NCBI GenBank assembly: GCA_035529935.1
Contig: DATKVT010000028.1
Coordinates: forward strand, 1-32,985
Length of the DNA: 32,985 nucleotides
DNA from: Williamwhitmania sp.
GTDB taxonomy: Bacteria; Bacteroidota; Bacteroidia; Bacteroidales; Williamwhitmaniaceae
Reading direction: 5' to 3'
Part shown: positions 3,778 to 32,985 of the stretch, piece after piece
Layout: every line of letters starts with the position of its first letter
Numbering within the stretch: position 1 is the stretch's first letter
Position numbers and translations under genes: made by a program
Notes under the pieces: model-generated
What the model saw: the letters and a program-made list of their open reading frames with translations, nothing else
What the model was told of the DNA's origin: nothing
Database searches by the model: none

Positions 3778-4696
3778 TTCTGATTACGCCCTTTACCGAT
3801 TTCACATGCTCACGGCTAAGCTGCGACAGCATCAGCCCACCAATCACCACCGACATTCCCACAAACTGCATTAGGGTGAGATGCTCGTGCAGCACAATAA
3901 TTGCCAAAATAGTTGTAATTACAGGTATAGCATTGTTGAACACGGTGGCTTTGTTTATGCCCAAGCCCCGAATGCTATAGCTAAAAAGTAGGAAGGCTAG
4001 TGTGGAAGCAAAAATAGACATCAACAACACCAACATAATTGCCCTCCCGCTGATAGGGGTTATAAGGAAATGCCCTCCCTCAAAGAATATAAACAGTGGA
4101 AGAAAAAAGATGGCTCCAATGGTATTTTGGTAAGCTGTTATGGTAAACACGTTGTAACGGCTAGTAAGTGTTTTAATCACTGCCGAATACCCCATGGTTG
4201 AGGACACTGCAAGAAACATAAGCAACACCCCTGCCGGACGTGCCACCAGCTGGAAATCTTTATTTACAAGAACCAGCAGCACTCCAAAGATAGAGATAAC
4301 TATTCCGGCAAAGCTGGCTCGTGTCAAGCGTTCTCTGTGAAAAACATAGGCGCTAATAGAAGTAAATAGAGGTATGGTGGAGATTATTACCGATGCCACC
4401 GACGATGATATCATTGTAACGCCAATGCTTTCGCCAATGAAATACATTAGAGGCTCAAAAAAAGCAAGAATAATAAAGAGCTTAAGGTCACCTGGTTTAA
4501 TTTTCTCCAACTTTCCAAGGAAGTAGCTCACAGGAAAGAGAAACAGAAGGGAAATTAGCAGCCTAAAGAACACCAGCGTAATGGGATAAGCACCATATTC
4601 TTGGTAGAATTGCTTATACCAGATGAATGTTAAGGCCCAAAAAACCTGAGCTAAAATTACGGCTATGTAAACGGTGAACTGCTTCGATTTTAACAT
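3743..4696 (-). CDS. EamA-family (drug/metabolite) transporter
   Basis: The protein is an integral membrane protein with about ten hydrophobic helices, in two repeats of five as in the EamA/DMT superfamily (RhaT-like). Typical features are FWALTFIWYK in helix 1, the AxVIISTIPLFTSISAYVFHRERLT segment at the end of the first repeat and a matching NNAIPVITTILAIIVLHEHLT segment in the second. I prefer the ATG at 4696, which puts the first helix about ten residues in, as is usual; an in-frame ATG at 4741 would add 15 polar residues. The C-terminus is basic. It lies upstream of and overlaps the YkgJ-like gene. The exported or imported substrate is unknown. Confidence 0.9.
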   Translation of the reverse strand: MLKSKQFTVYIAVILAQVFWALTFIWYKQFYQEYGAYPITLVFFRLLISLLFLFPVSYFLGKLEKIKPGDLKLFIILAFFEPLMYFIGESIGVTMISSSVASVIISTIPLFTSISAYVFHRERLTRASFAGIVISIFGVLLVLVNKDFQLVARPAGVLLMFLAVSSTMGYSAVIKTLTSRYNVFTITAYQNTIGAIFFLPLFIFFEGGHFLITPISGRAIMLVLLMSIFASTLAFLLFSYSIRGLGINKATVFNNAIPVITTILAIIVLHEHLTLMQFVGMSVVIGGLMLSQLSREHVKSVKGVIRNGYNRARARKS

Positions 4697-4741: not shown

Positions 4742-5098
4742 TAAATATTAAGGCTCTGGAGTAAAACAAGATTGCCCATTTGCACATTGAGTGAAACCAA
4801 TAAACCAGCTCGATTTTCCGATAGCCATCCACCATTTCACGCTTCTGATAAATTATTATTATTCTTTATGGCTATGTAAAATACAGTAATGGAATTTCAT
4901 CCAAAAGAGGTAAGGCAACAAGTCTAACAGGTAAGTTCCTAGGACATATAAATTCTGCCTCTTTTCAAAAAATATGTATAAAACAACTTGCAGGCGCAAT
5001 CGTTTGTAAGCATATCACTCAGCCCATCATCAGCTGTTTTTCAACTGGTTATTATCAAAAAATGACTTTTCACCATAGCAAATCATCTCCGATATCCA
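4742..5098. other. Intergenic region between divergent EamA and GH31 genes
   Basis: This AT-rich gap contains no credible coding frame. It should carry the promoters of both divergent genes. An 8-bp inverted repeat, AAAAGAGG at 4903-4910 and CCTCTTTT at 4958-4965, is present, but it is too short and too widely spaced to be called an operator. I see nothing else that can be supported. Confidence 0.4.
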
Positions 5099-30534: not shown

Positions 30535-32211
30535 CTATCTGTTAATATTGGGTAGCTCCAGACCATAACCCTTCTTTCTATCTTCTGCCTTAAGCAGGAA
30601 GGCAAACAGCAGGGAGAGTATGCTCAGCGAGGTAAAAATTACCAAATCGAAGAAGTAATCGTACCGAAGGTTCAACTTTGTCTTCTCTATGATAGGATAG
30701 ATTGCTTCTGAGGTTTTAATCTCAATATCCTTGTAAAACAGGGTCTTGTTTTCCTCCTTATTAATACCCGATAGCGCACTTGCGGTGCTTGCTGCAATGC
30801 TACTTTTTAGGCTTCCCATGTCAACCGATGAGGTTGGAACTGCCTCGTATATGGTATTCTGTACCAGCGAGTCGATGGTTCGGCTGCTGGCCTTTTCGGC
30901 GAGCTGCGTAATTTCCTTACCGGTAAGACCGTAAGCCTTATCGGATAGCACCTGCTGGTAGCCATTCGCAACGGCATCCTTTATAACCAGCTTGTTGGGG
31001 GTTACCTCCGGATTGGTTGCATTGAGCACTACGCCCAGCAGCAACGGAATGGCCCACAGGCCAATATTCTGAATCCAGAAAATTACTGCATAGGCTGTAC
31101 CCAGCTGCCTTTCGGGAATAATCTTGGGAACGGAGGGCCACATGGCGGCCGGAACCAACGAAAAACCTATTCCAAGGATGATTACCATGGCCGCTGCCAG
31201 CCACCAGGCGTTTAGGAAAGGAATTGCCAGTATGCCATGCACAAAAATTAAGATGATGGATCCCATAATCATGATGGTGGCACCCTTCCCTTTGGTGTCG
31301 TAAAATGTCCCAAACAGAGGCGTGAGGAAGATGGTGCCAAACGGAAGCAGGGCGGGGATGGCACCTGCCAGGTTGGGGTTGACGTGGTACTTGTTGATCA
31401 TCAAGTCGGTTGCGTAGAACAAAAACGGGAACACGGCCGAGTAGAACAGCACGCAGAGGATGGCGATATACCAGAAGCCCTTGTTCTTTATGATGAAGAG
31501 AATGTCCTTCATCTCAAAGGCCTCCTCAACCTCGTTGCCATTGCTGCTTTGGGCGATGGAGGCATCCAGCCTCTTATCCATAACCATGTAGATGATGAAG
31601 GCGGCCAGCGCAATAAGCATGAGGACAAAAGCCAACAGAACAGGAGATGTGAAGGAGTAGGTTGTTGCCAGCGGCAAGGCAATGCCAAGCGCAACTGCAG
31701 TTCCCAAACGGGCAATGGACATCTGTAGGCCCATAGCCAACGCCATCTCCTTGCCCTTAAACCACTTTACAACGGCCTTCGATACGGTAATTCCTCCTGC
31801 CTCTGACCCTACGCCAAAGATTCCAAATCCGATAGCGGAGATTACCACCTGCGTTTTTACTCCAAAAATCATGGCGCCATCGGGAAACACGTGTATCAGC
31901 GCCCAGTAGTTAAGCCCTGTTCCCACTACCATTAACACAGTGGACATGATGCCGGTAAAGCGGATCCCCATTTTATCGAGGATAATGCCGCTAAAGATTA
32001 GCATGAACAGGAATACGTTAAACCAGGTGTAGGAGGAGGTATATATCCCAAAATCGGAGCTGTTCCAACCCAAAATGCTCTCCAGCATCGGCTTAACCGG
32101 CGAAAGGGCATAGTTAAAGTAGTATGAACCAAACATTGATAGCGATACTATTATCAGCGCGGTCCATCTCGCCTTTTTCGAGTCGCGTAAAGTAGTTATC
32201 AGTTTTTCCAT
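30535..32211 (-). CDS. MFS transporter with long loop before the last helix
   Basis: The 558-residue protein has twelve hydrophobic helices and MFS signatures, such as GIILDKMGIRFTG (motif A, residues about 75-87) between helices 2 and 3 and GTFYDTKGKGA in the second half (301-311). A cytoplasmic central loop lies at about 211-245. Residues about 398-515, some 118 residues, form a hydrophilic Ser/Ala/Lys-rich segment between helices 11 and 12, which should be periplasmic; most MFS proteins have fewer than 20 residues there. This layout recalls MFSD1-like dipeptide carriers of Bacteroidota, but the substrate is not known. A weak promoter box, TACATTTA, lies on the minus strand at 32243-32250. 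Confidence 0.88.
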   Translation of the reverse strand: MEKLITTLRDSKKARWTALIIVSLSMFGSYYFNYALSPVKPMLESILGWNSSDFGIYTSSYTWFNVFLFMLIFSGIILDKMGIRFTGIMSTVLMVVGTGLNYWALIHVFPDGAMIFGVKTQVVISAIGFGIFGVGSEAGGITVSKAVVKWFKGKEMALAMGLQMSIARLGTAVALGIALPLATTYSFTSPVLLAFVLMLIALAAFIIYMVMDKRLDASIAQSSNGNEVEEAFEMKDILFIIKNKGFWYIAILCVLFYSAVFPFLFYATDLMINKYHVNPNLAGAIPALLPFGTIFLTPLFGTFYDTKGKGATIMIMGSIILIFVHGILAIPFLNAWWLAAAMVIILGIGFSLVPAAMWPSVPKIIPERQLGTAYAVIFWIQNIGLWAIPLLLGVVLNATNPEVTPNKLVIKDAVANGYQQVLSDKAYGLTGKEITQLAEKASSRTIDSLVQNTIYEAVPTSSVDMGSLKSSIAASTASALSGINKEENKTLFYKDIEIKTSEAIYPIIEKTKLNLRYDYFFDLVIFTSLSILSLLFAFLLKAEDRKKGYGLELPNINR

Positions 32212-32487
32212 ATAGGTTTTAGTGGTTAAAAAAAATTTGGCATAAATGTAGAAAACAATTTGAAAGAAAAACTTTTTAGTGGACTAAAGTTTCACACATG
32301 TTAATACGTTGAATTACAGCATCTAATATAACCACATAGTCGCCGAATATTAATTATTTCCAGCGCTTAATAGCTAAGTTACAAGCAAACTTAATTTGTG
32401 GCATGTAGCGCCGCTAATGAAGGGCTAAAAAACTTTCTATGGGCAATACCGCATATTTTCGCCTACGGGTCGGGGAGCAGCTCACCG
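32212..32487. other. Intergenic region upstream of the MFS gene
   Basis: The left part (to about 32400) is AT-rich and should hold the MFS promoter. From about 32440 the GC content rises and the sequence grades into the repeat tract. An open frame from ATG 32439 to 32693 runs through the first repeats; I do not call it a gene because its heptad pattern follows from the 21-bp repeat. Confidence 0.4.
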
Positions 32488-32676
32488 ACTCACTTTTTTG
32501 GCCCGAGCGGCTCCCTTTCCTGTTCGTGCGCTACCTTTTGTGGGGAATTATCCTAAAAAGGGGAGAGGATCGGCTCCCTTTTGGTTTTCTTGGGCTATCC
32601 TTTTTCCTCGCAGGGCTGGCTATTTTACTCCTAAGCCTACCATTTCGCGAGGAGATGCTCCTTCGTAGCGAAAGCG
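32488..32676 (+). repeat. Degenerate 21-bp tandem repeat, block 1 (pyrimidine-rich strand forward)
   Basis: Nine units of 21 nt, with a core like CTCCCTTTT. Cores or their degenerate forms begin at 32489, 32511, 32531, 32574, 32595, 32616, 32637 and 32658, nearly all 21 nt or a multiple of it apart. One unit (32551-32571) carries the core in the opposite orientation (AAAAAGGGGAG). The part of each unit outside the core varies freely. The tract continues as block 2. Confidence 0.7.
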
Positions 32677-32733
32677 CTTTCGTGCAGAGGTAGGCTTGCC
32701 TCGCAATTTGGGAGGCCACTTTGGGTCGCGTGT

Positions 32734-32796
32734 TAGGTTATCCTCCCTTTTTGTGAGGTCTCCTTCCCTTTTAATGAGGCTATCCTCCCTTGCTGC
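32734..32796 (+). repeat. 21-bp tandem repeat, block 2 (three forward units)
   Basis: Three units of 21 nt begin at 32734, 32755 and 32776. Each has a GAGG- or TAGG-like start, a variable dinucleotide and a TCCTCCCTTTT-like core. Core starts (32743, 32764, 32785) fall in the phase of block 1 with a shift of one nucleotide. The core of the first unit, CCTCCCTTTTTG (32742-32753), is repeated inverted at 32810-32821. Confidence 0.75.
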
Positions 32797-32808
32797 TAGG
32801 GCTACGAG

Positions 32809-32934
32809 GCAAAAAGGGAGGTCTACCGCCCTTCAAGAGGGACGAACCGAGGTAAAAGGGAGCCCATTCAGGGAATAAGAGGGAACGACCTCGGTAAAAG
32901 AGAGCCTCTTCTGGATAAAAGGGAGAACGCTGCG
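32809..32934 (-). repeat. 21-bp tandem repeat, block 3 (six units in opposite orientation)
   Basis: Six units of 21 nt fill 32809-32934. Their core on the plus strand is AAAAGGGAG (32812, 32854, 32896 as AAAAGAGAG, and 32917) alternating with AAGAGGGA (32835, 32877). This is the reverse complement of the block 1 and 2 core. The remaining nine or so bases of each unit vary. A 12-nt stretch (32797-32808) is the turning point between blocks 2 and 3. The repeat stops about 50 nt before the window edge. Confidence 0.75.
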
Positions 32935-32985
32935 CTGCGGGGTGAGGATTTGATTTGGTCTACAATAGTCAGGGGGTGACTTGTT

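Follow-up and report, generated by a model that had tools for sequence, protein, structure and literature searches.

Close to its right-hand end the window, by which we mean the whole 32,985-nt stretch of Williamwhitmania DNA analysed here, carries an array of degenerate 21-bp units. We propose, with about an even chance of being right, that it is the DNA half, present as an orphan copy, of a chromosomal module with two parts, in which the gene of a protein named hyp157 is joined to a 21-bp array that would hold a row of protein dimers. Gene and array together look like an undescribed two-part unit of Bacteroidota, and a description of this module was not found in the open-access literature. 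An earlier note on the window, made from the sequence alone, missed both the related array that lies beside a gene and the phylum-wide linkage of gene and array.

Structure and surroundings of the window array

We determined the self-match of the tract 32480–32940 at increasing lags. At lag 21 it reached 0.414, whereas in shuffled sequence the maximum over all lags averaged 0.305, and none of 500 dinucleotide shuffles attained the observed value; at lag 42 the self-match was 0.427 and thus above the lag-21 value. Elsewhere in the window, forty tiles of 800 bp all stayed below the periodicity threshold. The 21-nt period over about 450 bp described in the earlier note is therefore real, and its borders, placed there at 32488–32934, are right to within about 10 bp. 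A tandem-repeat scan, which the note had suggested, agreed on the period but not on the extent: the sole TRF call is confined to 32735–32791, because the units are too diverged. The features of the region are as follows.

32480–32930, no strand assigned: orphan array with some 20 units of 21 bp, degenerate and near-palindromic, recognised by the shuffles, the dyad grid and an in-register paralogue at G000:C217:8880-9330
32735–32791, plus strand: best-preserved units with a T-core, AGGCTATCCTCCCTTTTAATG (TRF period 21, score 70)
32805–32930, minus strand: units with an A-core on the plus strand, on the same grid as the T-core units, with centres from 32813 to 32918 in steps of 21
32446–32471, minus strand: conserved element end GACCCGTAGGCGAAAATATGCGGTAT, facing the side on which a paired gene would be expected, also present at G000:C217:9305-9330
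32968–32985, plus strand: REP-like hairpin of a dispersed family, truncated by the contig end so that its first arm, GTCAGGGGGTGACTTGTT, is left; this arm occurs about 20 times in the genome
32439–32693, plus strand: open frame of 84 aa across the array, judged spurious (no Pfam match, at least 7 stops per frame in the C217 paralogue)
30535–32211, minus strand: MFS transporter gene (PF07690, E 2.7e-30), the nearest real gene, outside the module

Fitting a 21-bp weight matrix gave about 20 units with a consensus of approximately CTCsCTTTTnGCGAG followed by a 6-nt spacer, and the units are near-palindromic with the pattern CTNNC-N5-GNNAG. Dyad centres are found at 32750, 32771, 32792, 32813, 32834 and onwards to 32918 in exact steps of 21 bp. 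This grid runs unbroken across 32797–32808, where the earlier note had placed a switch of orientation; what changes strand along the array is the central run of four to five T or A alone. Since only this run flips, the tract has to be seen as a single continuous array and not as two opposed ones, and the supposed switch falls away. The single clear slip of the grid, 43 in place of 42, lies between 32707 and 32750, and to the left of 32581 some weak units follow the grid only loosely.

The element end GACCCGTAGGCGAAAATATGCGGTAT occurs at only the two listed sites in the whole genome when up to three mismatches are allowed, and 235 bp separate the MFS transporter gene from this end at 32446. As a protein profile scan found no hyp157 homologue in the window, the tract is an orphan array. 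Inverted ends or a target duplication were not found at the window copy, where one shared end is seen and the contig stops at 32985. The REP-like hairpin, with the form GTCAGGG(T/G)G..AGTC(G/A)C(G/C)CCCTGAC, belongs to a repeat family separate from the array and also flanks the C217 array; it was observed at 32968–32985 of the window, at 4616–4666 and 5339–5389 of L007 and at 4782–4828 of L006. Contig C231 overlaps exactly with the last 141 nt of the window, which looks like an assembly-graph overlap, and the window contig would thus end in a repeat.

Paralogous arrays and linkage to the hyp157 gene

Further copies with a 21-nt period, which the earlier note had named as a supporting result, are present in the same genome and in related ones. 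Arrays of the window type lie on contigs C217 and C105 as well as in the congener G001. When the window array is aligned in inverse orientation to the C217 array over its full length, identity is 58% over 451 bp with a single gap of 1 nt. The identity amounts to 0.575 in register and to at most 0.41 at every other 21-bp shift; because it peaks in register, both arrays are paralogues that were copied whole rather than independent amplifications. They also have a common end, GACCCRTANGNNAAAATWTGCGGTAT, which is absent elsewhere in the genome. Judged from general indel rates, so few indels at such divergence point to a constraint on spacing, and the spacing of the array indeed looks constrained, in agreement with the selection on spacing that had been suggested before. 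Identity between the two arrays further depends on the position within the unit (p 0.017) and is symmetric about the dyad (p 0.012), with maxima near unit offsets 3 and 6–8, these modest p values being those of one paralogue pair. C/G at offset 3 and T/A at offset 6 are the commonest bases in most other arrays too. A 155-bp copy of 32485–32639 with 99% identity was also noticed at the start of contig C53 (L005 1–155); beyond it the flank differs and contains a putative tRNA gene, and the copy represents either a recent duplication or a strain variant.

Directly 5’ of the C217 array lies a gene of 157 aa, hyp157, and an array in genome G274 is likewise located directly 3’ of such a gene. Searching 60 relatives with the protein yielded 16 homologues in 7 genomes, nearly all of them with a 21-nt or 42/43-nt array directly downstream, and in a profile search 26 of 296 Bacteroidota genomes proved to have the family. 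At the fetched hyp157 loci the periodicity threshold was passed by 33 of 44 downstream regions versus 4 of 45 upstream regions. After removal of one duplicated locus a 3’ array accompanies 32 of 43 genes compared with 4 of 44 upstream (Fisher p 2.5e-10), the genes in this count having been found by protein alone with the arrays unused, and many of the genomes being fragmented MAGs; the remaining 11 of 43 genes are those without a detected array. In 34 downstream regions some period from 14 to 31 exceeded the threshold, and in 30 of these 21 was the best. The reverse approach, in which arrays found by DNA were inspected with the protein profile, placed hyp157 directly upstream at eight loci (L082, L093, L095, L103, L115, L116, L123 and L153). 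No recurrent neighbour gene other than hyp157 was found at the linked loci.

Gene-linked arrays start on average 114 bp past the stop codon and have a mean length of 285 bp. In complete modules they comprise roughly 7–23 degenerate 21-bp units private to the locus: at different loci the sequences are mostly unrelated and the period of 21 bp is constant. Similarity of the arrays correlates with that of the proteins (Mantel r 0.40, p 5e-4; r 0.15, p 0.008 for pairs with protein similarity below 0.35), a signal that is also expected from shared descent. Many gene-linked arrays have a weak dyad or none (combined p 0.04). The second hyp157 gene of the genome from which the window comes (L221, G000:C89:15332-15772) has its own array of about 14 units of 21 bp with a different sequence.

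The hyp157 protein gave no significant match in Pfam, NCBIfam, PHROGs, PADLOC or PDB sequences. Its AlphaFold2 model is all-helical with a mean pLDDT of 92 and contains one helix of about 55 residues. Foldseek with this model returned nothing convincing among PDB or viral proteins, and no DNA-binding fold was recognised in the domain and structure searches. Plasmid and phage collections likewise gave no match to hyp157.

Distribution and mobility of 21-bp arrays

An order-wide DNA search with the window or the C217 array as query gave, outside the genome of these arrays, a single match of 24 nt, to the C217 query, and nothing else. Because this search found so little, profile models were built. 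With a three-unit sequence profile arrays were found in other Bacteroidales, and a pattern scan over 84,980 genomes gave 70 loci, of which roughly half show clear 21-bp arrays. The loci stem mostly from Bacteroidales MAGs which, going by record names and general knowledge, we take to be of termite-gut origin, and additionally from Maribellus, Chitinophaga and one Streptococcaceae MAG. The motif GACAAAATGGCAGT, or one close to it, ends the arrays at ten termite-gut Bacteroidales loci (L090, L121, L106, L109, L119, L128, L132, L136, L141 and L153), the flanks of which differ. Among viral contigs there were 24 pattern matches, none of them inside an array.

In Tannerella sp. Ncb351_bin64 the arrays sit in MITE-like elements with the inverted ends CAGGGCAACCGCAYCAAAA. 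Perfect 9-bp target duplications surround all 7 of the 7 complete elements, which places them among MITEs, and 6 of the 7 have a length of 159+21n, the seventh being off by 1 nt. Thus, 21-bp arrays can be mobile and can change by whole units. The family (L105, L107, L112, L126, L159, L168 and L186) shows about 50 matches to the inverted ends in one genome of 3.1 Mb; an autonomous partner was not found there, and the plasmid collection gave no match to the element. Copies in Odoribacteraceae have common ends as well, GRGGGCGTGTCAARAGCC, unlike those of Tannerella.

The Streptococcaceae MAG Nc350_bin195 (L097, L100, L102, L138, L140, L147 and L155) carries arrays of 21 or 42 bp with the same consensus and up to 35 units. 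By inspection they are flanked by genuine streptococcal genes, and no hyp157 gene is present within the fetched DNA; they reflect either transfer between phyla or convergence. A z of 5 obtained at one pair in these arrays, which could have been taken for an RNA hairpin array, stems from two alternating unit types and was dismissed.

Several other repeats were noticed. L087 (3840–4160, G152:C10) is a strong 21-bp array of about 15 units with the unrelated sequence TGGAACTAGCCTGACTGAAAC, and L081 (728–880, G269:C278) is a short 7/14/21-bp repeat, ACCCGAAACTTCAA, immediately upstream of an aconitase-like gene. The pattern matches in Xenorhabdus indica (L154) and in an Acidobacteria genome (L125) resemble coding heptad coiled coils rather than members of the array family.

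Interpretation and comparison with known systems

A complete module consists of an all-helical hyp157 gene product of about 157 aa, whose gene is followed, on average about 115 bp past the stop codon, by the locus-private array. Most likely, as far as can be predicted from sequence, each unit is a binding site of a dimeric protein on one face of the helix, the dyad being read by the dimer. With 21 bp equalling two helical turns, 10–20 dimers could line up on one side of the DNA as a cooperative nucleoprotein array, and hyp157 itself would be the binder. Orphan arrays such as that of the window may be extra sites which arose by duplication or transposition and slowly decay. Possibly the arrays serve as a centromere-like or nucleoid anchor, or titrate the hyp157 protein. 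Points that weigh against the reading as a whole are that the searches recognised no DNA-binding fold, that the dyad is weak or missing in many gene-linked arrays, that 11 of 43 genes had no array detected and that the Streptococcaceae arrays showed no hyp157 gene in the DNA covered. Of the functions considered in the earlier note, the one-sided array of protein-binding sites is thus the best reading, with binding itself put forward as a prediction, whereas the fold-back structure received no support, as neither covariation nor a convincing fold energy (z about -2) was found.

The main rival is selfish minisatellite or MITE DNA that spreads by transposition and replication slippage and has no function for the host, the window copy being a decaying relic. 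The Tannerella elements fit this explanation well, having CAGGGCAACCGCAYCAAAA as terminal inverted repeats, 9-bp duplications in every case and lengths mostly of 159+21n, as do the common ends GRGGGCGTGTCAARAGCC of the Odoribacteraceae copies and the precedent of BrickBuilt (PMC4596501). It does not account for the gene linkage, i.e. for a 3’ array at 32 of 43 hyp157 genes, nor for the single 1-nt gap between old paralogues and their dyad-symmetric conservation, and neither inverted ends nor a target duplication were detected at the window copy. We regard selfish DNA as a rather unlikely explanation, yet as the strongest of the rivals. A transcribed array whose RNA works with the protein, after the manner of type III toxin-antitoxin systems, is improbable: the gene does adjoin a private repeat array, and array and protein sequences correlate, but the array is placed 3’ and not 5’ of the gene, the arms show no covariation in the arrays of the same genus, the RNA fold reaches a z of only about -2, no Rfam match was obtained up to E 1 and hyp157 had no match in PADLOC.

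Phased A-tracts that curve the DNA as a purely structural signal, with no dedicated protein, would be compatible with runs of four to five T or A every 21 bp and, since such runs bend DNA alike on either strand, would explain the flips of the core. Some arrays, however, have CCGGA or CCGAG cores instead of the A/T run and keep the flanking dyad, and the linkage to one protein family is left unexplained, which makes this reading very improbable. The earlier note had named a decayed coding sequence as the finding that would speak against its own view. Such a sequence with heptad repeats could be imagined, as 21 is a multiple of three, as the look-alikes L154 and L125 read as heptad coiled coils and as one frame shows slightly lower conservation at its third position when the paralogues are compared (0.48 vs 0.60). 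Stops nevertheless occur in all frames of the C217, C105 and G001 arrays, none of the frames is generally open in 29 gene-linked arrays and the open frame of the window has no Pfam match, so that we consider decayed coding DNA extremely improbable.

Returning to the module of hyp157 gene and array, we are somewhat more hesitant, at slightly under an even chance, to propose a new class of chromosomal modules of protein and DNA in Bacteroidota: a helical protein of a new family would be encoded beside, and evolve together with, a private array that is conserved in its 21-bp spacing and not in its sequence, and orphan arrays, some of them mobilised as MITEs, would spread the sites through the genome. 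A protein family without any annotation hereby gains a concrete and testable partner throughout the phylum. The arrays hold an exact period of two helical turns despite a freely drifting sequence, and the linkage would explain a class of puzzling degenerate minisatellites, some of which break assemblies. Should hyp157 bind the array that accompanies its gene, bacteria would have a nucleoprotein array of a new kind, and as every array has its own protein, specificity can be tested by swapping pairs.

Several known systems resemble the module in part. In the type III toxin-antitoxin systems ToxIN, CptIN and TenpIN an array of repeats of about 35 nt lies 5’ of the toxin gene and acts as RNA. As in the module, a private tandem repeat array accompanies the gene of a small protein; here, however, the array has a period of 21 nt and is located 3’ at 32 of 43 loci and upstream at 4 of 44, and hyp157 has no significant Pfam, NCBIfam, PADLOC or PDB-fold match that would assign it to the ToxN, CptN or TenpN families. 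Plasmid iterons with their Rep proteins and centromere arrays (parC/parS) consist of phased sites at intervals of two helical turns, with the gene of the binder next to them. The phased tandem arrangement two helical turns apart beside a protein gene is found here as well, but hyp157 modules are chromosomal, contain no Rep or Par domain and were not matched in the plasmid collection. In REP elements with RAYT transposases, too, a protein gene is combined with linked, dispersed palindromes; in contrast, hyp157 lacks a match to the Y1-transposase or any other Pfam family, and its arrays are tandem and private to the locus.

A close parallel to the repeats themselves is BrickBuilt, a MITE of Porphyromonas gingivalis with a 23-nt tandem unit, AGAYCATARTATCCTCTCRTRTG, and IS5-type terminal inverted repeats, GAGACCTTYGCA, which was described only from Porphyromonas and for which no linked protein gene was reported (PMC4596501). 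Both are intergenic degenerate minisatellites of Bacteroidales with variable unit number and dispersed copies, in Tannerella also with inverted ends, and the BrickBuilt consensus too has a dyad (9 of 11 pairs). The ends GAGACCTTYGCA were not encountered, as the Tannerella elements carry CAGGGCAACCGCAYCAAAA and none were recognised at the window copy. The arrays described here differ from BrickBuilt in their period of 21, their consensus, their linked protein family and their phylum-wide occurrence.
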